Origin: a virus
IMG/VR virus record: IMGVR_UViG_3300042569_001733
Location: 1-55,029 of that record
Strand: one strand, 5' to 3'
Length of the DNA: 55,029 bases
Shown here: positions 3,238-22,401 of the stretch, in pieces
Layout of the letters: each line of letters opens with the position of its first letter
How positions within the stretch are numbered: position 1 is the stretch's first letter
Notes under the pieces: generated by a model
Databases searched by the model: none
The model's input: the letters and a program-made list of their open reading frames with translations, nothing else
Told to the model about the DNA's origin: nothing
Program-made: the position numbers and the translations under genes

Positions 3238-3516
3238 ATGTCACTTGCTGAACGTCTATCTCAATCAACAGGAATCGGTGCAGGACTGCCATGTAAGCTT
3301 GGGAGTCTCCTAACAGGAAGCCAGCTTTCAAAGGAAGACAAGGCAAAACTTGCCGAGGTACTTGAGGTTCCCTACGGTGCCCCAGGACGTCTTCCTAACA
3401 CAACCATCGCCGCGGCTCTAAGAGAAGAAGGCTTAGACGTAGGAGATACAGCGGTGACAAAACATCGCCGCGGCGCTTGTCGCTGCTTCGGATCTAATCC
3501 TAAGATCAGTGCGTAG
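3238..3516 (+). CDS. Helix-turn-helix DNA-binding protein
   Basis: 92 residues from ATG 3238; GGAG (3228-3231) sits 6 bases upstream, so this start is preferred to an in-frame TTG at 3226 that is itself part of the ribosome-binding site. The C-terminal half, with TTIAAALREEGLDVGDTAV followed by TKHRRGAC, has the form of the small HTH proteins of actinophages that carry a TIAxALRxEGxxVxxxxVxxHRRGxC motif. A CRC motif follows. Its stop TAG abuts the ATG of the phosphoesterase (no bases between), so the two are probably translated together. Likely role: DNA binding, regulatory or in recombination. Confidence 0.75.
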   Translation: MSLAERLSQSTGIGAGLPCKLGSLLTGSQLSKEDKAKLAEVLEVPYGAPGRLPNTTIAAALREEGLDVGDTAVTKHRRGACRCFGSNPKISA

Positions 3517-4710
3517 ATGACGCTATTTGACAAGCTCTCTGTTCCGGGGCGCTCTGGATCAGACTTTAAGACGAAGAACAGCGCTCCTGATGAGGCATGG
3601 CGTCCACGCATGGACGTAGGAGATGACGGCGGTTATGTAATCTCTATACCGCGACCTATCTCTGATATTCCTGATGCAAGAGAATTACTAATAGAATTTG
3701 ACCTTAATCCAGAGCATTGGGCGATTACGTCGGTAAGAAAATCGCGTTGGCAAAGATACGACGGCGAGCTTTTAGAATCACAAAGAATTAACATCGTTCC
3801 AATATCATCTCAAACAGAGTTAGACCTAGACATAAAAGATCTAATGAAGAGTATGCAAAATTGGAAGCCTGGCAAGAAGCCTCCAGTGACAACCGGAGAC
3901 CTTGCCTTTATTTTTGCGCCCAGCGACCAGCAACTAGGTAAGAAAGCTAACGGAGAGGGCACCAAGGAGACAGTAGAGCGTATTCAAACAGCAACTGAAG
4001 GTGCGGTTCATCGTTTACACGACCTTAGAAAAGTTGGAAGAGGCATAGGCACGGTTGTTATCGCGCTCCTAGGAGATCACGTTGAAGGTAACGTTTCTCA
4101 GGGTGGAAGACTGCAAAGTCACTCCGCGTCGGATATGGGTCTTACCGAACAGATACGCGTAGGCATAGGTGTGCTTATGGTTCAAATAAAGGCATTTGCA
4201 CCTCTAGTAGATCGCGTTGTAGTTGCGGTAGTAAACGGTAACCACGATGAGGTTAGCCGTCAGGTTGTGCTTGACCCATCTGAAGGATGGAATACGCACA
4301 TCGCAAACGTAGCCCAGTCTATCTGCGCTGAAAGCAGTGCGCTATCGCACGTAGAGTTTAGGTTCCCTGCAAAAGATCATCAAACACTTGCCGTTGAGGT
4401 ATGCGGAACGATGATCGGATTATTTCATGGGCACCAAAGTGGAAGAGACGTTACCAAGTATCTATCAGAGCAGGCAGCGGGTCAAACTGCTCTCGGCGGA
4501 TGCGATGTTTGGTTATCAGGACACTTCCACAACTTTAGATCTATGGACGTCGGCGGAAGATTTTGGGCGCAATGTCCCACTGTTGACCCAGGCTCAGCAT
4601 GGTTTAGAGACCGACGTGGCCTAGAGTCTAACCCTGGTATATTGACCATGGTCGTAGGTAAAGATCACGATCCAAGGCTTGATGTTAGCGTAATTCCAGC
4701 CAATAAATAA
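3517..4710 (+). CDS. Calcineurin-like (Mre11-type) metallophosphoesterase
   Basis: 397 residues. Metallophosphoesterase motifs are in order: SDQQLG (D137), GDHVEG (186-191), GNHDE (241-245), FHGHQ (~303-307) and GHFHN (~335-339). The first motif has DQQ where DxH is usual. The middle of the protein fits phage Mre11/SbcD-like nucleases or related phosphoesterases; the N-terminal ~125 residues are not recognised. The ATG follows the HTH gene's stop with no gap and has only a weak ribosome-binding site, which suggests coupling. Possible roles are DNA-end processing, with the HTH protein giving DNA targeting, or another phosphodiesterase activity. Confidence 0.85.
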   Translation: MTLFDKLSVPGRSGSDFKTKNSAPDEAWRPRMDVGDDGGYVISIPRPISDIPDARELLIEFDLNPEHWAITSVRKSRWQRYDGELLESQRINIVPISSQTELDLDIKDLMKSMQNWKPGKKPPVTTGDLAFIFAPSDQQLGKKANGEGTKETVERIQTATEGAVHRLHDLRKVGRGIGTVVIALLGDHVEGNVSQGGRLQSHSASDMGLTEQIRVGIGVLMVQIKAFAPLVDRVVVAVVNGNHDEVSRQVVLDPSEGWNTHIANVAQSICAESSALSHVEFRFPAKDHQTLAVEVCGTMIGLFHGHQSGRDVTKYLSEQAAGQTALGGCDVWLSGHFHNFRSMDVGGRFWAQCPTVDPGSAWFRDRRGLESNPGILTMVVGKDHDPRLDVSVIPANK

Positions 4711-4742
4711 TAAAATATCCAAGTAAAGATTTTATTTATTTG
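4697..4742. terminator. AT-rich imperfect inverted repeat, possible terminator
   Basis: CCAATAAATAATAAAAT and its near-complement ATTTTATTTATTTGG flank about ten bases just after the phosphoesterase stop. The stem is A/T only and not followed by a clean T-run, so this is a weak terminator candidate separating the nuclease and fibre blocks. Confidence 0.3.
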
Positions 4743-4804
4743 GTAGTATGTACCTGTCTCCTATTATTGTCTCTGCGATGTTCTGAGAGATATAGGTACG
4801 TTAA

Positions 4805-7087
<2,283 letters not shown>

Positions 7088-7100
7088 GGGAGGATAGTAA

Positions 7101-8792
<1,692 letters not shown>

Positions 8793-8800
8793 TCCTTTCT

Positions 8801-8806
8801 TATAAT
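8801..8806 (+). promoter_or_regulatory. Candidate promoter -10 (TATAAT)
   Basis: TATAAT in the 101-bp gap between fibres 2 and 3, about 90 bases before the ATG at 8894. A stem-loop GGGAAC-CTCTCT-GTTCCC (8848-8865) lies in the resulting leader. Confidence 0.35.
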
Positions 8807-8847
8807 ACCTTAAGTCATCTTCTTTCCTAAAGGATAAAATATCTTTC

Positions 8848-8865
8848 GGGAACCTCTCTGTTCCC
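8848..8865 (+). other. Leader stem-loop before fibre 3
   Basis: Perfect 6-bp arms GGGAAC/GTTCCC with a 6-base loop, 28 bases ahead of the fibre 3 start and not followed by T residues. It could stabilise the mRNA or weakly separate the fibre 2 and fibre 3 transcripts. Confidence 0.35.
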
Positions 8866-8878
8866 AACACTCGAGTGA

Positions 8879-11260
<2,382 letters not shown>

Positions 11261-11273
11261 CCCCTTCTTAAAG

Positions 11274-11313
11274 GAAACTGCCCGTTCTTCTCCAGAAGAG
11301 CGGGCAGTTTTTT
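11274..11313 (+). terminator. Rho-independent terminator after fibre 3
   Basis: AACTGCCCGTTCTTCT pairs with AGAAGAGCGGGCAGTT (one T-G wobble) around a 2-base loop and runs into a T-tract. It is a clear intrinsic terminator 14 bases after the fibre 3 stop. Confidence 0.9.
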
Positions 11314-11343
11314 ATGCTCGTTTTTAAGATAAACATCGAGATT

Positions 11344-11359
11344 TATAGTATAGTATACC
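11344..11359 (+). promoter_or_regulatory. Candidate promoter for fibre 4 and downstream
   Basis: Overlapping TATAGT-TATAGT-TATACC hexamers (11344-11349, 11349-11354, 11354-11359) lie between the terminator and the ATG at 11388. A new transcript is needed after the terminator, which supports a promoter here. No clear -35 box. Confidence 0.45.
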
Positions 11360-11378
11360 CATACCTTTGCAGCAGTGA

Positions 11379-14404
<3,026 letters not shown>

Positions 14405-14408
<4 letters not shown>

Positions 14409-15580
14409 CAACTAATTATAAGATATTAGGACAGACTGCTCCTGCTGTAGGCGGTGAATTACTTAACTACACAGTTCCCGCTGCTACCTCTACATTAGTG
14501 CGCTCAATTAACGTAACTAATACCTCTGCAACTGCAGATACTTACAGTCTTGCTATTGCACCAAAAAACTTGTTTGTAGGAATTGTTGATTATTCAACCA
14601 CAGCAACATACTCTACCGATGGTATTACTTGGACATCAACAACTTTGCCAGTCGCGTCTACTTCTGTATGGCGCGTTTCGTATGGAAATGGTGTATTTGT
14701 TGCAATCCAGCCTGATTCAACAACAGCATTCTATTCTACTAATGGAATATCTTGGAGTACAACAACCATGATATCAGATGGACAGTATGGAAATTGGCGT
14801 GGTTTAGCTTTTGGTAACGGTACTTTTGTTGCTACTGCTCAAAACACATCAGTTTCAGCTACTTCTACTAATGGTATTACTTGGACTCAAAGAAGTATGC
14901 CATCAAGTAAAAATTGGACTGCAGCGGTCTATGGAAACAATACGTTTGTTGTATTAACATCATTTTCTACTACAGCCGCCTCGTCTACAGACGGCATTAC
15001 TTGGACTGAAATAACTATGCCAGTGTCTGTTAATTTTAAAAACGTAGTTTTTGGTAAAGGTATATTTGTTGCAGTAGCAGGTGAATCAACCACATCCGTA
15101 TCTTCAACAGATGGAATTACTTGGACTGTAAGAACTCTGCCGTCTGCACCTGATTGGGTTGGGTTGGCTTATGGAAATGGTGTATTTGTTGCAACAGGAG
15201 CTTATTTTGGTTCTTCTAACGCATCGATATATTCTACTGATGGAATAACTTGGACAGCAACAACTATGCCAAATACAGCCGCTTGGGAATCGGTAGCGTA
15301 TGGAAGTAATGTTTTCGTTGCAGTGGGGTTTGGCTATGGGGGAGGTAAAGCAAGCTCAACTAACGGAATTACTTGGACTATCAGAACAATTCCAGAAATA
15401 AAAAGAATAGGATATAGCAATACAGAATCATCTAACTTTATTGCTTATAACAATTCTATTCCTGGAAATTCAACGGTAACTATAAAAGCAGGATACACGT
15501 TGCCAGCATCTGGCGGTATCAGAGTAACATCTACTAACGGTACCTCTACATTTTCAACATTCGGAGCGGAGATTTCATAA
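14405..15580 (+). CDS. Propeller-bearing fibre/tip protein B (paralog of A)
   Basis: 391 residues, overlapping A by ATGA. Same architecture: N-terminal NYKILGQ...TLVRSINVTN, seven repeats with ST(D/N)GITWT and YGNGVFVA, and a C-terminal segment ending FSTFGAEIS. Repeat faces differ markedly from A (fewer charged residues, more Thr/Ser), consistent with two tip specificities after duplication. Likely role: alternative or heteromeric adhesin at the tail fibre tip. Confidence 0.75.
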
Positions 15581-16346: not shown

Positions 16347-17171
16347 ATGACTACACATGACGAAAAGAAATTCTTTTTTATGGCAGGGCTTCCACGCTCA
16401 GGAGGCACGCTGCTATCTTCTATTCTTAATCAAAATCCAGATATATACGTCTCACCGCAGTCGACTCTTCCTAACACCCTAGGCGCCGCGTACAACCAGT
16501 ATCAAAGTAAAGAGAATAAAGACGCTAATCAATTTGATCATATCTACGCTGTTATGGAAACAATCATTCCAATATTCTACAGTGTCCGCCCGGAGAAGTA
16601 CATCGTCGATAAGAACTTCTCCTGGCTAGACGGGCACCCGTACGTAATTCTAGAAAACCACCTTAAAAATGATATTAGGGTTATATGTCCAGTGCGTGAT
16701 GTTTTAGGTATACTTGCGTCATGGAATAGACTATGTGAAAATGACCCTAATAACGAATACGACAAGACTATATATAAAAAATATAGAGACAAAAGCTTGA
16801 TGGCTGACAAAAGAGCCCGTTACTTCATGGAGCTTGGTGACGAAGAAAATGGAATTCTAAAGGGAATTGAAAATCTTAAACGAGTGCTATATCCTGAGTT
16901 CAAGGATAATATTCTACTAGTAGACTATGACGACCTTACTAAGGACACGGAAAGTACTATAGGCAAGGTGTACGATTTCCTTGAGATTCCTAACTACACC
17001 CATGCGTATAAGTCACTATCTACACCTCATAAGTATGAAGATACTTGGGGAGTTAAGGATCACCATAAGGTGAAGTCGACTATCAAGCGTGAAGAATACG
17101 ACTACAGTAAGATATTTTCGCCTGCAACAATTAAGCAATACTCGGGACTAGAGTTTTGGAGAAACACATGA
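16347..17171 (+). CDS. Sulfotransferase (PAPS-dependent)
   Basis: 274 residues from ATG 16347; an earlier in-frame GTG (16302) lies inside the terminator and is rejected. FMAGLPRSGGTLLSSIL (GLPRSGGT at residues 14-21) is the 5'-phosphosulfate-binding loop of sulfotransferases. ICPVRDVLGILASW fits the 3'-phosphate-binding region, and LVDYDDLTKDTESTIGKVYDFLEI is typical of the C-terminal half. It would move sulfate from PAPS to a sugar or tyrosine hydroxyl. The next gene (ATGA overlap) encodes an APS kinase-like donor-making enzyme, and four glycosyltransferases follow, so a glycan acceptor is likely. No signal peptide, so cytoplasmic. Confidence 0.85.
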   Translation: MTTHDEKKFFFMAGLPRSGGTLLSSILNQNPDIYVSPQSTLPNTLGAAYNQYQSKENKDANQFDHIYAVMETIIPIFYSVRPEKYIVDKNFSWLDGHPYVILENHLKNDIRVICPVRDVLGILASWNRLCENDPNNEYDKTIYKKYRDKSLMADKRARYFMELGDEENGILKGIENLKRVLYPEFKDNILLVDYDDLTKDTESTIGKVYDFLEIPNYTHAYKSLSTPHKYEDTWGVKDHHKVKSTIKREEYDYSKIFSPATIKQYSGLEFWRNT

Positions 17172-17923
17172 TCATTCAAATTATTGGACTACCAGGATCT
17201 GGTAAGACCACGTTAGCTAAAGCTCTTCTAGAGCACACGGATGCCATTCATCTTAATGCAGATGAGGTACGAGCTGATCTTAACAAGGACCTTGGTTTTA
17301 CTCCCGAGGATCGCATCGAGCAAGCTCGTCGTATGGGAGCTCTAGCTCGTTTGTTAGACGCGCAAGGGCGTTTAGTTGTGGTTGATTTTATATGTCCTAC
17401 CTTTGAAACGCGTAAGGTATTTGGTAAGCCAGACTACCTCGTGTGGGTAGACCGTATCGAGGAAGGACGCTTTGCAGACACAAACAAGATTTGGGAAGAC
17501 CCGCTGGAGTACAGTGTTCGCGTTGAGGCAGGGTGCACGGTAGAGGAAGAAGTTCAAATTGTCTTGACTGCAGCTGGTCTACACGACTGGAAAAAGCCAA
17601 CAACCTTAATGCTTGGACGCTATCAACCTTGGCACGAAGGCCATCATGCTCTCTACAATGAAGCCGGTAAACGAACACCGCAGGTTCTACTAGGAGTTCG
17701 CAACACGCAAGGAACAAGCGAGAAGGATCCGCTGTCGTTTGATCAGGTAAATTTTTATATCGACAAGGATCCAGCAATGAAGGACGCGATGGTTGTTCGG
17801 TTCCCCAACATCACTAACATTGTCTACGGGCGTGACGTCGGATACAAGATCGAGGAGGTTGTATTAGATGCTGCTACGCAGGCTATTAGCGCAACTCAAA
17901 AACGTAAAGAGATGGGCATATAA
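17168..17923 (+). CDS. Fused APS kinase-like / nucleotidyltransferase
   Basis: 251 residues from ATG 17168 (GGAG upstream; ATGA overlap with the sulfotransferase). The N-terminal domain has GLPGSGKTT (7-15), LNADEVRADL (29-38) and DLGFTPEDR (41-49), then VVVDFICP. These match the APS kinase pattern of P-loop, DGDNVRxGL, DLGFSxxDR and VxFISP. The C-terminal ~105 residues contain GRYQPWHEGHH (150-160), the HxGH signature of nucleotidyltransferases, and DPLSF like the NPFS/T segment of NMNAT-type enzymes. The domain order equals that of animal PAPS synthetase, but the second domain is far shorter than ATP sulfurylase. Inferred role: PAPS supply for the neighbouring sulfotransferase. Confidence 0.8.
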   Translation: MIIQIIGLPGSGKTTLAKALLEHTDAIHLNADEVRADLNKDLGFTPEDRIEQARRMGALARLLDAQGRLVVVDFICPTFETRKVFGKPDYLVWVDRIEEGRFADTNKIWEDPLEYSVRVEAGCTVEEEVQIVLTAAGLHDWKKPTTLMLGRYQPWHEGHHALYNEAGKRTPQVLLGVRNTQGTSEKDPLSFDQVNFYIDKDPAMKDAMVVRFPNITNIVYGRDVGYKIEEVVLDAATQAISATQKRKEMGI

Positions 17924-18025
17924 ATGAAAGAGTATACACTTGCTGTTGTTGCATCTCTTATAATTGCTGCAATTATGGTCTATTTTGTTGATAAAAAATT
18001 TGGAGGAGAGGATGAAGGTAACTAA
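17924..18025 (+). CDS. 33-residue membrane peptide
   Basis: The ATG follows the previous TAA by one residue's spacing and the frame ends at 18025, overlapping the DUF2061 start (18012). The peptide has one hydrophobic helix (LAVVASLIIAAIMVYFV) and a charged tail (DKKFGGEDEG). Coupled placement between the PAPS enzyme and a second membrane protein suggests a real small gene, perhaps a membrane anchor or transport helper. Too short for family assignment. Confidence 0.55.
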   Translation: MKEYTLAVVASLIIAAIMVYFVDKKFGGEDEGN

Positions 18026-18215
18026 GGCTCGATCCTTTACTAAGTCGCTTAGCTACCGTATCTTTGGAACTTTAAGTTCTTTTGCTGTTGTGTTTGCCAT
18101 TACCGGCGAGGGCACATTGTCAGCCCTTATTGCCTTCTGGGAGACTGTAGTTAAAGTCGGTATCTACTATTGGCATGAAAGAATTTGGAACAAGATCAGC
18201 TGGGGAAGAAAATAG
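18012..18215 (+). CDS. DUF2061 membrane protein
   Basis: 67 residues from ATG 18012, directly after GGAGGAGAGG. The pattern TKSLSYRIFGTL, AITGEGTLSALIAFWETVVK and IYYWHERIW fits the DUF2061 family: two membrane helices with a conserved KxxxYYxHExxW end. Function unknown. It sits between the PAPS enzyme and glycosyltransferases. I recall DUF2061 genes near sulfate-activation genes in some bacteria, but this is memory, not evidence from the window. The stop TAG overlaps the GTG of the next gene. Confidence 0.75.
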   Translation: MKVTKARSFTKSLSYRIFGTLSSFAVVFAITGEGTLSALIAFWETVVKVGIYYWHERIWNKISWGRK

Positions 18216-18883
18216 TGGAACATTACGACGTACTTATAGCAACGCCTGGCGCGATGCTCGAGGCGCAATATGTAAAGAGTCTAGTTGAGACGCTTGCAGA
18301 GTGCGACAAGCGCGGGATTACGTATAAGTGGCTTAATGCCTACGCCTCACTTGTTCATCATGCTCGCGAGCTAACCGCAAGTGGCGGTGAAGGTATGGAA
18401 TTAAACCCAGACCATCGTGGTCCTGTGGGAGATTCTGTAACATATAAAAAGATATTTTGGATTGACTCAGACATCGCTTGGACTCCTGAACAATTTTTTA
18501 AGCTATATGAATCAGAGTATGAAGTAGTTTCCGGGGCCTATATAGTCTCCGATGAGGTTACTACAACAGTTCATGCTTGGGGTAAACCAGGAGGAATCCC
18601 TATCCCAGAAATTATGAAGATGAAAGCGCCTCTTAAGGTTCAAAGCATCGGGTTTGGCTTTGTAACTATGAAATATGGTGTCTTTGAGCGTTTACCGCGC
18701 CCGTGGTTTAAACACTTTGACCAAACAGTTCCAACCGCTAGAGGTAATCAAGTTGTGGACTCTATCGGAGAAGACGTATCGTGGTGCATCAAAGCCTATC
18801 AAGCAGGTATTGAGATTTACTTTGACCCGTCTGTTTTAGTTAATCATATGAAGAAAAGAGCAATTACATGGCCAAAGAAATAA
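18215..18883 (+). CDS. Glycosyltransferase (GT-A fold) 1
   Basis: 222 residues from GTG 18215, chosen over TTG 18185 because GGGGAAG precedes it and TAGTG couples it to the DUF2061 gene. KKIFWIDSDIAWTP carries the DxD metal/nucleotide-sugar motif, and IGEDVSWC near the C-terminus fits the catalytic GEDxxF/W region of family 2-like enzymes. Related in pattern to the next gene. Transfers an unknown sugar; no membrane segment, so it probably acts in the cytoplasm on a soluble acceptor such as a virion protein. Confidence 0.75.
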   Translation: MEHYDVLIATPGAMLEAQYVKSLVETLAECDKRGITYKWLNAYASLVHHARELTASGGEGMELNPDHRGPVGDSVTYKKIFWIDSDIAWTPEQFFKLYESEYEVVSGAYIVSDEVTTTVHAWGKPGGIPIPEIMKMKAPLKVQSIGFGFVTMKYGVFERLPRPWFKHFDQTVPTARGNQVVDSIGEDVSWCIKAYQAGIEIYFDPSVLVNHMKKRAITWPKK

Positions 18884-19581
18884 AAAAGAAGAGTGTCTAT
18901 ATCGCTACACCTATGTATGGAGCTATGTGTAGCGGTTACTTTGCTCGCAGCCTTACGGACCTTGTTATTAACCTTCTACAAAGTGGACACGAGGTCCACT
19001 TTCAAGATGTGTATAACTCAAGCCTTGTTACCGAGGCGCGAAATTTCTTAACAGAAGACTTCCTTCGCAAGGAGTATGACTACCTTCTATTTATTGACGC
19101 CGACCAGGGATTTAATCCACTGGGTGTGATTAAGATGATTGAAGAAGATGAAGACGTTATCTCCGGCGTAGTCCCGCTTAAGTTTCTAAACTGGGATGGT
19201 GTACTTAACGCCTCTCGTCAAGGGAAGATTGATCTATATAACTACACATCTGCCCATAATATTGTGCCTCTTAACGCAGATAACGTAGACCCTTCTCAGA
19301 AAATCGAGGTCGCGTCAGCTGGCACCGGGCTCATGCTTATCAGTCGTACAGTATTTGAAAAAATGATGCCTACAACTGAAGTCTACGGATTTGGCGGAAC
19401 ACCTTGTCTTAACCTTAGCAAAGGCGATGAGATTTATAACTTCTGGTCACTTGAGACTATTGATGGTATTAGGTTTGGAGAAGATGTTAATTTCTGCCGT
19501 AAATGGCGTGAACTTGGTGGAAAGATCTATACGACATTTTGGCCTCAGGCTACGCACGTTGGAACCTACGTCTATAAGTAG
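18868..19581 (+). CDS. Glycosyltransferase (GT-A fold) 2
   Basis: 237 residues; ATG 18868 lies 16 bases inside the previous gene. VYIATPMYGAMCSGYF begins the nucleotide-binding fold, YLLFIDADQGFNP has the DxD motif and FGEDVNFC is the GED catalytic motif. A paralog-like companion of the preceding enzyme. The two may add successive sugars of one oligosaccharide. Confidence 0.78.
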   Translation: MAKEIKKKSVYIATPMYGAMCSGYFARSLTDLVINLLQSGHEVHFQDVYNSSLVTEARNFLTEDFLRKEYDYLLFIDADQGFNPLGVIKMIEEDEDVISGVVPLKFLNWDGVLNASRQGKIDLYNYTSAHNIVPLNADNVDPSQKIEVASAGTGLMLISRTVFEKMMPTTEVYGFGGTPCLNLSKGDEIYNFWSLETIDGIRFGEDVNFCRKWRELGGKIYTTFWPQATHVGTYVYK

Positions 19582-19635: not shown

Positions 19636-20700
19636 ATGAAAGTTGCCGCATACGCCATCTCGTTAAACGAGGAAAAGCACGCTGCCCGCTGGGCTGAAAC
19701 TACAAAGGACGCGGACTTCCGCCTTGTATGTGACACTGGATCCACAGATAGAACGGTTGAGATCCTACGCGAGCACGGAGTAATAGTTCACGAGATTAGC
19801 GTCAAGCCTTGGCGCTTTGACGTTGCACGCAATACCGCACAGAGTTTACTACCCGACGACATAGACGTATGCTTGTCTTTAGATATGGACGAACTTGTAG
19901 ATGAAAACTTCTTTGAGGAAGTTAAGAAGCAGTGGGTAGACGGAGCTACAAAAGGTTGGTGTGAGTTTGACACCGGACACGTTTGGTGGGGTTGCCGTCT
20001 TCACTCACGACATAAGATGTATTGGAAATATCCAATTCACGAGGTATTTGTTCCTTCGCTTGATACACAAAATGTTAGCTGCCAAATTCACGGAGTTAAG
20101 ATGTATCATAAGCCTGATGACACTAAGTCGCGCGGACAGTATCTACCTATGCTTGTTGCCGCGTCAAAGGAGTTTGGAGAGGATCACCGCATCTGGGTCT
20201 ACCTATGTCGTGAATACTACTTCTATAAGCAGTGGGAACTTGTTATCAGCGCGGCTGAAAAGGTTACAGAGTTTAGCAAGGACTGGTACATCGAGCGTGC
20301 AGCCGTGTGTCGTTGGGCCGCGGAGGCTTCGCGCAACATAGGTAAGAAAGAAGAGGCGCACGTTTGGGCAGACAAGGCAATTGAGATTGATCCTTGCGGA
20401 GAAAATTACTACGAGAAGGTCCGCTGCTACTACGACTCCGGTGACTGGGGCGGAGTCTGGGAGACGTGTAAGCTTGTCGCCGCGTGTGACAAGACGGATC
20501 ACTATCTTTCATCCGAGGCGCTATGGCGTTGGCAACTTGACGACATGCGTGGGCTATCCGCGCACTACCTAGGTGATAGAGATAAGGCTGTACAATATGG
20601 TGAGTTGGCGGTTGCAGGTAGCCCTGACGACGAACGCCTAAAGACAAACCTAAGGTTCTATAAAGCAGGAATCGAGGCACAACTAAATGGAACAGCCTGA
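19636..20700 (+). CDS. Family 2 glycosyltransferase with TPR-like C-terminus
   Basis: 354 residues; AGGG lies about 8 bases before the ATG. The N-terminal GT-2 domain has AAYAISLNEEKHAARW, CDTGSTDRTVEIL and LSLDMDELV (DxD at ~79-81), as in SunS-like enzymes that glycosylate peptides. The C-terminal ~170 residues are helical with TPR-like repeats (EEAHVWADKAIEIDP, KAVQYGELAVAGSPDD), a common partner-binding arrangement in protein O-glycosyltransferases. This supports a protein acceptor. Overlaps the next gene by 14 bases. Confidence 0.8.
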   Translation: MKVAAYAISLNEEKHAARWAETTKDADFRLVCDTGSTDRTVEILREHGVIVHEISVKPWRFDVARNTAQSLLPDDIDVCLSLDMDELVDENFFEEVKKQWVDGATKGWCEFDTGHVWWGCRLHSRHKMYWKYPIHEVFVPSLDTQNVSCQIHGVKMYHKPDDTKSRGQYLPMLVAASKEFGEDHRIWVYLCREYYFYKQWELVISAAEKVTEFSKDWYIERAAVCRWAAEASRNIGKKEEAHVWADKAIEIDPCGENYYEKVRCYYDSGDWGGVWETCKLVAACDKTDHYLSSEALWRWQLDDMRGLSAHYLGDRDKAVQYGELAVAGSPDDERLKTNLRFYKAGIEAQLNGTA

Positions 20701-21550
20701 TGTATTTGTTGCAGTTCTTGTAAAGCAAAAAGAAGCTGTATTACCTCTATTTCTTGAATCACTTGAGGCTTGGGATTACCCTAAGGAAAAATTATTTCTC
20801 TACATCCGCACGAACAACAACACCGACAATACCGTGCAGATCTTAGACGACTGGATAGAGAAGAACGTTCATCTTTATAAAGGCTGCGTGTACGATAAGC
20901 AAAATGTCGGCGAGGCGGTAGAGCGTTTTAAGCAGCACGAGTGGAACGGCGAACGATTTAGGGTCCTTGCAAAAATTCGTCAACAAAGTTTTAACGAGTG
21001 CCTTGATACTGACTGCAAATACTACTTTGTGGTTGATGTTGATAACTTTATATTCCCGGAGACGCTCAACGAGCTTATTAAGTTAGACCTGCCTATCGTA
21101 GCTCCGTTTATTCGCTACGCGGTTGCGTTTGGCGATAATGTAGACGACGAGGAAACTGCAAAGGAACGCGAAGGACACCTTGGACAGTACTACGCTAACT
21201 ACCATCACATCGTAGACGACTACGGCTCAATCGTCGCAAACGACGCCTACTACCAGGTGCTAGAGCAAAAGGTTAAGGGACTTATCGAGTGCATGTGCGT
21301 TCACTGCACGTATCTTATTAAGCGCGAACATCTTTCAGAGCTTTCGTATTTAGAGGATTCTGATCGCTGGGAGTACATGGTGTTCTCAAACTCCGCGCGC
21401 GATAAAAATATTAAACAGTATCTAGATAACAGAACTATCTACGGTATCCTTACGCTGTCAGAAAACGCAGGCGCATCGCGCTGGTGGTACGAGTATCTAA
21501 AGGATAAAGAAGATAGAGCTGTGGCGTATAAAGATCGCTGGCTACAGTAG
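20687..21550 (+). CDS. Collagen galactosyltransferase-like (GT25-like) enzyme
   Basis: 287 residues. LVKQKEAVLPLFLESLEAWDYPKEKL, TNNNTDNT (42-49), YYFVVDVDN (DVD at 117-119), LPIVAPF (135-141) and a downstream VHCTYLIKREHL follow the order and spacing of the collagen Hyl-galactosyltransferase domain. In animals that domain reads roughly LxxLDYPxxR, TDHNxDNT, FxDTDN, LPVVAP and VHSTFL. Family placement is from memory and needs a profile search; a generic GT-2/Anp1-like enzyme is the alternative. Last gene of the cassette; its end overlaps the convergent WhiB gene by 9 bases. Confidence 0.7.
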   Translation: MEQPDVFVAVLVKQKEAVLPLFLESLEAWDYPKEKLFLYIRTNNNTDNTVQILDDWIEKNVHLYKGCVYDKQNVGEAVERFKQHEWNGERFRVLAKIRQQSFNECLDTDCKYYFVVDVDNFIFPETLNELIKLDLPIVAPFIRYAVAFGDNVDDEETAKEREGHLGQYYANYHHIVDDYGSIVANDAYYQVLEQKVKGLIECMCVHCTYLIKREHLSELSYLEDSDRWEYMVFSNSARDKNIKQYLDNRTIYGILTLSENAGASRWWYEYLKDKEDRAVAYKDRWLQ

Positions 21551-22060
21551 CGGTTTTTCCTTCTTAGGCTTCTTTTTCTTTTCTTTATCGCGCTCGCTCT
21601 TTGCTAGCTTCTCTTCACGTTGAATATGATACGCGTCAACCGCGTTTGCGCTTGTGCGTGAGCGCCAGGTAAAGTCACAAGCCTCGCATTGAACAAGACG
21701 CATGGTTGCCCAACGTCCTCCACCTGGAACATCTACTACCAATGTCTTAAGTTTATTTGGTCGTGCGTTGCAGTAAGGGCACTGTGGAAAACGTTGTCTA
21801 CGAGATTCCTGTCCGTTCCAGGATACGGAAAGTGTACGACGAATTTCTCCTTCGTCTTTTCCTCCCCAGATTCCCCAGATCTGCTTGTGCTCTAACGCCC
21901 ACTTCAAACATTCTTTTCGTACAGGACACGAGAAGCAAAGATTCTTTGCCTGGTATTTTTCTGCAGGCTCGGATGAAAAGAAGAAATCTCTGAAATCCTC
22001 GTTTACCTGTTGTCCGCATGCTGAGTCTTTTTGCCAACTAAGATCTAGTGATCCGCTCAT
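21542..22060 (-). CDS. WhiB-family regulator with C-terminal zinc ribbon
   Basis: 172 residues from ATG 22060 (ATGA overlap with the upstream stop); an upstream in-frame GTG at 22081 is less likely. WhiB cysteines are C15, C42, C45 and C51 (Cx26Cx2Cx5C), followed by GIWGG at 63-67; these bind a 4Fe-4S cluster and contact the main sigma factor. Unusually, the C-terminus has CPYC and CEAC pairs (zinc-ribbon-like) and a very Lys-rich tail. Likely a phage transcription regulator, and the main sign of an actinobacterial host. Confidence 0.9.
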   Translation of the reverse strand: MSGSLDLSWQKDSACGQQVNEDFRDFFFSSEPAEKYQAKNLCFSCPVRKECLKWALEHKQIWGIWGGKDEGEIRRTLSVSWNGQESRRQRFPQCPYCNARPNKLKTLVVDVPGGGRWATMRLVQCEACDFTWRSRTSANAVDAYHIQREEKLAKSERDKEKKKKPKKEKPLL

Positions 22061-22401
22061 TCTGCGATTACCTCGACCCACGTAATAGGAGTCAAGCCAT
22101 CTACGCTATCGCCTTCGCGTGTTTCACCGTCTTCATCGCACGCGGTTAATTCATTATCGCCGTCTACTTCTCCCGCGTAACCGTAGTTAATCAACGCGGA
22201 GTCAAGATACTTAAATCCGTTGCCTAATGACACGGATATACCATCGCGTTGTAGTGCAGACGCGAGTGCGCGACGAATAAGCTCGTTCTCTAGATCTATA
22301 TGATCCTCTGTGAAGAAGGTAACCGAATGAGCGTGTAAAGGCTCGTAGCCTTCACCCGTCCATTCCTTCCACAAAAGCTCACCTATACGTGAGTCTTTCA
22401 C
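22057..22401 (-). CDS. Hypothetical acidic protein
   Basis: 114 residues from GTG 22401 with GGGGA upstream. No family recognised. Contains an α/β-looking centre (LENELIRRALASALQRDGISVSLGNGF) and an acidic stretch (ACDEDGETREGDSVDG). Coupled to the WhiB gene by ATGA, so probably co-expressed with it. An imperfect inverted repeat (TTCCCCTTAGCG / CGTTAAGGGAA, 22404-22433) just upstream may be its operator. Confidence 0.6.
   Translation of the reverse strand: MKDSRIGELLWKEWTGEGYEPLHAHSVTFFTEDHIDLENELIRRALASALQRDGISVSLGNGFKYLDSALINYGYAGEVDGDNELTACDEDGETREGDSVDGLTPITWVEVIAE

Follow-up and report, generated by a model that had tools for sequence, protein, structure and literature searches.

A phage-encoded fusion of an APS kinase and a small NMNAT-related adenylyltransferase as a probable miniature PAPS synthetase

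In a stretch of viral DNA of 55,029 nucleotides (IMG/VR virus record IMGVR_UViG_3300042569_001733, positions 1 to 55,029; hereafter the window), a single gene encodes an APS kinase followed by a small HxGH adenylyltransferase. The product is probably a miniature bifunctional PAPS synthetase serving phage sulfotransferases, in which the second domain would activate sulfate and the first would complete PAPS. Computation supports the fold and site of an APS kinase, an adenylyltransferase active site that is intact, and a genetic link to sulfotransferases as well as to small membrane proteins of the DUF2061 family.

The fusion gene and its protein

The reading frame is intact on the plus strand, running from an ATG at 17168 to a TAA at 17921-17923 (251 codons), and AlphaFold2 predicts the C-terminal domain alone with a pLDDT of 93.5, the models of the domain and of the whole protein being confident throughout. 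The features of the protein are as follows, with residue conservation counted among 164 full-length family members.

17168 to 17923, plus strand: kinase-adenylyltransferase fusion, 251 residues, intact; phrog_10255 match over residues 1-250; AlphaFold2 pLDDT 94
17168 to 17596, plus strand: APS kinase domain, residues 1-143 (about 1-140); PF01583 at 8e-17; Z 19.3 to 7yq0
17186 to 17209, plus strand: P-loop GLPGSGKT, residues 7-14; K13 invariant (164/164)
17261 to 17314, plus strand: putative APS-site segment DEVR...GF...DR, residues 32-49; D32, R35, F44 and R49 each 164/164
17468 to 17503, plus strand: shortened lid, residues 101-112; aromatic residue at 109 (F/W/Y) in 164/164; P112 invariant
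17597 to 17920, plus strand: HxGH adenylyltransferase domain, residues 144-251; NMNAT profile match at 4.5e-10; hhalign 98.6%
17615 to 17644, plus strand: ATP-binding motif GRYQPWHEGH, residues 150-159; G150, Q153, P154, H156, G158 and H159 invariant
17825 to 17845, plus strand: YGRDVGY, residues 220-226, a GRD-like loop in the acceptor half; G221, R222, V224, G225 and Y226 invariant
17885 to 17905, plus strand: ISATQKR, residues 240-246, the SxTxxR motif; T243 and R246 invariant

A preliminary description of the window had reported a small second domain with an HxGH motif, and this is confirmed by a domain of about 108 residues that carries GRYQPWHEGHH (residues 150-160) and DPLSF (residues 187-191 of the fusion protein). 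That description's list of motifs did not include ISATQKR, the second superfamily motif of the domain. Since both motifs of HxGH adenylyltransferases (GRYQPWHEGH and ISATQKR) are present, the C-terminal domain is complete, not truncated.

The kinase domain

Sequence, structural model and the conservation of its putative APS contacts all identify the N-terminal half as an APS kinase. The Pfam model APS_kinase (PF01583) matches it at 8e-17 with 62.1 bits, against a gathering cut-off of 21.1, and in VIA-align the kinase model reaches Z values of up to 19.3 to APS kinases, the next family being gluconate kinase at 15.9. In CysC of Mycobacterium tuberculosis, APS is held through the side chains of D480, R483, F492 and R497, which engage its ribose, phosphosulfate and adenine (PMC4373884). 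Judged by motif spacing, these four core contacts would correspond to D32, R35, F44 and R49 of the fusion, each of which occurs in 164/164 full-length relatives. The equivalog model TIGR00455 gives 63 bits, below its cut-off of 138.7, and its match ends at residue 83.

The adenylyltransferase domain

Sequence comparison indicates that the C-terminal domain is an NMNAT-related adenylyltransferase by descent, the acceptor half of which appears to have been rebuilt. When a profile built from 44 C-terminal domains was searched against the PDB, NMN adenylyltransferases were retrieved at 4.5e-10 and 5.8e-9, with matches spanning the first ~75 positions; ATP sulfurylases were absent at E up to 10. 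Profile-profile comparison with hhalign gave a probability of 98.6% to NadM-type NMNAT/Nudix proteins (over the ATP-binding half) versus 0.7% to 20 Sat-type ATP sulfurylases; here the NMNAT reference profile comprised two sequences only, and the PDB search agrees with the outcome. The impression, gained earlier from motifs, that the second domain resembles an NMNAT more than an ATP sulfurylase is thus borne out by the PDB search and by hhalign. Descent as a reduced Sat-family ATP sulfurylase was considered and rejected on the hhalign value of 0.7%. In addition, PF01747 did not match the window protein among the best 25 of 29 Pfam matches at E up to 1, and relatives of the adenylyltransferase encoded as separate reading frames gave only sub-threshold matches to PF01747 (E 0.011-0.08).

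Between the ATP half and SxTxxR, a segment of NMNATs is ~35 residues shorter in the C-terminal domain and absent from the alignment, with the almost invariant PNIxxxxYGRxVGYxIE taking its place. In NMNATs, this acceptor-half segment, an insert with a conserved Trp, binds NMN. The NMNAT equivalog models score far below their cut-offs (TIGR01527, 16.4 versus 181.2 bits; NF003786, 24.4 versus 397). A structure search (VIA) with the model of the C-terminal domain returned PPAT at Z 10.6, NMNAT at 9.2 and GCT at 9.2; a predicted structure of this kind points to the HxGH adenylyltransferase fold only and does not discriminate the substrate, and that ATP sulfurylase is missing from the list proves nothing.

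Known ATP sulfurylases carry QxRN, HxxH, a GRD loop and SGTxxR (PMC3779200), and docking in human PAPSS1 puts sulfate between R421 and R522 (PMC11697783). The sulfate-binding motif QxRN is not found in the C-terminal domain, in which GRYQ, with G, R and Q invariant, stands at its place. The family does have a GRD-like loop, with GR invariant and D in 150/164 members, as well as an S-A-T-x-x-R motif, the match being one of motif order. An invariant GR at the corresponding place in that order is compatible with a differently built sulfate site, as read from the alignment, and is no proof of one. The lack of QxRN and the different descent also speak for a less likely reading in which sulfation involves the kinase half alone, phosphorylating host-made APS, while the adenylyltransferase uses another small acceptor (phosphate, phosphonate, or a sugar or polyol phosphate) and was joined to the kinase for another reason; the size and fold of the domain likewise suit cytidylyltransferases such as GCT (Z 9.2). 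The arrangement of the genes, described below, bears on this reading.

Distribution of the family

The kinase-adenylyltransferase fusion is a widespread phage protein that is so far undescribed. A whole-length match to the PHROG family phrog_10255, labelled 'kinase' (5.6e-68 across residues 1-250), together with the finding that 590 of the 599 pattern-matching IMG/VR stretches sampled encode relatives, excludes chance, and the number of relatives in IMG/VR is therefore at least 590. Five further relatives come from isolated phages recorded from Xanthomonas, Stenotrophomonas and Clavibacter, and six from bacterial assemblies, including one Rhizobium chromosome and three Pelagibacteraceae assemblies. 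No full-length match turned up to a family for which another reaction is established, the sole full-length family being this PHROG of unnamed function, and among open-access papers none was found on a kinase-adenylyltransferase fusion, a minimal ATP sulfurylase or a phage-encoded sulfotransferase.

Two variants may be recorded here. Six relatives (L161-L166) consist of the kinase without the adenylyltransferase, and in L161 the gene lies directly 3' of a UDP-sugar dehydrogenase gene. In one Pelagibacteraceae genome (L222, 16113-17883), the fusion overlaps a preceding pyruvate-kinase-like reading frame, and rRNA-like sequence seemingly lies just downstream.

Gene neighbourhood

Within the window, the fusion lies between a sulfotransferase gene and genes for a DUF2061 protein and candidate glycosyltransferases.

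16347 to 17171, plus strand: sulfotransferase (reading frame opens at GTG 16302; first ATG at 16347); PF13469 at 2.6e-13, PF00685 at 4.4e-13
18012 to 18215, plus strand: DUF2061 small membrane protein; PF09834 at 6e-16
18185 to 18883, 18868 to 19581, 19636 to 20700 and 20687 to 21550, plus strand: four glycosyltransferase-like reading frames; phrog_1574 and phrog_13126; weak Pfam matches (Glycos_transf_2, Anp1)

The 3' end of the upstream sulfotransferase gene overlaps the start of the fusion by 4 nt. Across relatives, a Pfam-type sulfotransferase motif occurred in 36/577 reading frames within 3 kb of the fusion versus 2/400 further out (p = 7e-7, a value that overstates independence, as the reading frames come partly from related contigs), and in the first set of relatives all of the near ones are on the same strand as the fusion. 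When loci are grouped at 90 % identity, 18 of the 80 groups have a Pfam-type sulfotransferase gene, and most PF13469 matches in 50 long records lie no more than 2 kb from the fusion. A wider motif count reaches 53 loci, including two upstream protein families (L091-L104) without a match to any Pfam model. In a held-out set of 106 loci, there was no overall near/far enrichment of the sulfotransferase motif (23/500 versus 12/305, p = 0.72); in that set it is the split-gene lineage that carries the link, and several of the far matches are real sulfotransferases (L351, L342). The function of phage sulfotransferases has been called 'unclear' (PMC10580990).

At L092, L094, L095, L097-L099, L101 and L104 (about 3300-4990), two consecutive reading frames with FTPRSGST and FTNRSGST loops are situated directly 5' of the fusion. 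These loops resemble the PAPS loops of sulfotransferases, the two reading frames checked have no convincing Pfam match, and they may constitute a new sulfotransferase family.

A PF13469 scan of Pelagibacteraceae, of Casjensviridae phages and of DLP_6 found no such protein. In the Casjensviridae (L001-L005), the gene directly 5' of the fusion is NADAR by annotation in Bhz60, a MazG-like pyrophosphatase is encoded nearby, and in the other members the upstream gene matches the Bhz60 NADAR gene in size and position. Since they lack a PF13469 protein and, in the case of Casjensviridae, have NADAR upstream, the Casjensviridae and DLP_6 lineages, which are without a visible link to sulfation, may put the fusion to another use. 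NADAR directly upstream, along with the fact that NadM-type NMNATs are the closest sequence relatives of the C-terminal domain, is also what speaks for a role in NAD metabolism, whereby the C-terminal domain would be an NMN adenylyltransferase and the kinase would phosphorylate a nucleoside or NAD, perhaps restoring NAD during anti-phage defence. Such a role is quite unlikely, given that the NMN-side segment of NMNATs is missing, the NMNAT equivalog cut-offs are far from reached, the kinase is APS-kinase-like with its putative APS contacts conserved, and the linkage is to sulfotransferases.

Downstream, a DUF2061 gene is found within 2.5 kb in 96/172 loci of the first set and in 35/80 groups at 90 % identity. 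In Bacteroidota, cysH and cysD lie next to DUF2061 at 7/11 of its genomic loci (L246-L252), several of which continue with a cysN-like gene, and one Pseudomonadota genome has DUF2061 beside cysC and cysH. Linkage of DUF2061 to an APS kinase is seen in only 1/44 Pseudomonadota genomes that have DUF2061, and so it is weak there, while the link in Bacteroidota is strong; given its absence in Pseudomonadota generally, the DUF2061 linkage is supporting evidence only. The best matches of 76/123 phage DUF2061 sequences are to the seven cys-linked bacterial sequences, an apparent closeness that is suggestive only. DUF2061 may take part in the activation or transport of sulfate.

In virome papers, viral cysC is filed under assimilatory sulfate reduction, an assignment that is not validated (PMC12713726; also PMC9611531). 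Taken in that way, the fusion would be a usual auxiliary gene that boosts host sulfate reduction to cysteine, with the adenylyltransferase as an accessory, and the adjacency of DUF2061 to cysH in Bacteroidota would fit. This is very unlikely: a search of 50 long phage records for PF01507 proteins (PAPS reductase or CysD) found none, which argues against cysteine synthesis and indicates that these phages bring no CysD-type sulfurylase, and the partners that recur beside the gene consume PAPS in sulfation. In the Pelagibacteraceae genomes with the fusion, which may be incomplete, no Sat, CysD or CysH was found.

The four glycosyltransferase-like reading frames are possible makers of a sulfated acceptor, a link that we infer. 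Other genes of the window include a 33-codon reading frame between the fusion and DUF2061 (MKEYTLAVVASLIIAAIMVYFVDKKFGGEDEGN; 17924-18025, plus strand), probably with one transmembrane helix; four long tail-like reading frames at 4826-13181 (plus strand), in which collagen-like GATGLTG repeats extend across thousands of bases; two paralogous reading frames at 13185-15580 (plus strand) that consist of TSTDGITWT repeats with FVAV strands and may encode beta-propeller tail proteins; and a WhiB-like cysteine pattern at 21542-22081 (minus strand), which suggests an actinobacterial host.

Gene fusions and split genes

The strongest argument for a role in sulfation comes from gene fusions and fissions. 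On the chromosome of Rhizobium sp. BK376, one reading frame of 555 aa encodes Sulfotransfer_2, APS_kinase and the adenylyltransferase in that order; it is a single case, a scan of viral contigs having found no relatives of this triple fusion. Two phages, L311 and L342, have a kinase-DUF2061 fusion preceded by a separate adenylyltransferase gene. At 33 loci, kinase and adenylyltransferase are separate reading frames, most of which overlap by some 14-17 nt, the adenylyltransferase having mostly 114 aa; directly upstream at 17 of these loci is a sulfotransferase-like reading frame, Pfam-confirmed for L317 and L334. Because neighbours, varied double fusions and the triple fusion unite the same functions, they point to one pathway that leads from sulfate via APS and PAPS to a sulfated product. 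That kinase and adenylyltransferase occur both separately and fused, in both gene orders, and once together with a sulfotransferase also renders it unlikely that the kinase half alone serves sulfation.

Proposed function

As a bifunctional PAPS synthetase, the fusion would work in two steps. The C-terminal domain would adenylate sulfate (ATP + SO4 -> APS + PPi), and the N-terminal domain would phosphorylate the 3'-OH of APS (APS + ATP -> PAPS + ADP), thereby pulling the unfavourable first step. PAPS would then be used by the adjacent sulfotransferase, perhaps on a glycan from the neighbouring glycosyltransferases, with DUF2061 as a putative membrane partner of sulfate activation. Sulfate as the acceptor, the passage of APS between the domains and the identity of the final sulfated product are what we infer within this scheme. 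Points against the PAPS synthetase reading are the C-terminal domain without QxRN and without profile similarity to ATP sulfurylase (0.7%), the Casjensviridae and DLP_6 without a PF13469 protein, the NADAR neighbour in Casjensviridae, the held-out p of 0.72 and the kinase-only relatives.

The preliminary description had offered either a minimal sulfurylase or activation of another substrate, such as a sugar phosphate or phosphonate. Context and fusions favour a minimal sulfurylase over the latter, though not in the sense of a reduced ATP sulfurylase by descent. Our judgement leans slightly toward the C-terminal domain being a third kind of ATP sulfurylase of independent origin, alongside Sat and CysDN, that arose from an NMNAT-like ancestor, was reduced to ~110 residues and became widespread in phages within a portable sulfation cassette (sulfotransferase, miniature PAPS synthetase and DUF2061).

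If the adenylyltransferase makes APS, it would represent a third enzyme type for sulfate activation in a minimal form of ~114 residues, which also occurs as a separate protein and would be handy for mechanistic work. A function would then be at hand for a very common phage family with an unannotated C-terminal domain, some viral 'cysC' calls would move from sulfate reduction to sulfation, and there would be a bearing on the role of phage sulfotransferases as well as on the source of PAPS in hosts that perhaps do not produce any.

Comparison with known systems

With APS kinase (CysC, PF01583), the kinase of the fusion has in common the fold, the P-loop and the putative D/R/F/R contacts to APS; its lid, however, is ~12 residues shorter in the alignment, with the aromatic residue at 109 kept in all 164. 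Similarly, the C-terminal domain shares GRxQPxHxGH, an NPF segment and SATxxR with NadM-type NMNATs, but lacks ~35 residues of the acceptor half and has PNIxxxxYGRxVGY instead. ATP sulfurylases of the Sat type (PF01747) present HxGH, a GR(D) loop and SxTxxR in identical order; the C-terminal domain differs from them in having neither QxRN nor GxxKxxD and in its size (~108 versus ~390 residues). The family phrog_10255 is the same full-length family as the fusion, its PHROG name describing the kinase half alone. Finally, the domain order noted at the outset, an APS kinase and then an HxGH adenylyltransferase, is indeed that of animal PAPS synthetases (PAPSS1, PAPSS2), to which the kinase aligns at Z 17-19 and whose two reactions are proposed here for the fusion as well. 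However, the animal enzymes have ~620 residues compared with 251, and the second domain of the fusion is NMNAT-related, lacks QxRN and shows no similarity to PF01747; because that domain is of other descent than ATP sulfurylase, the fusion does not belong to the PAPS synthetase family.
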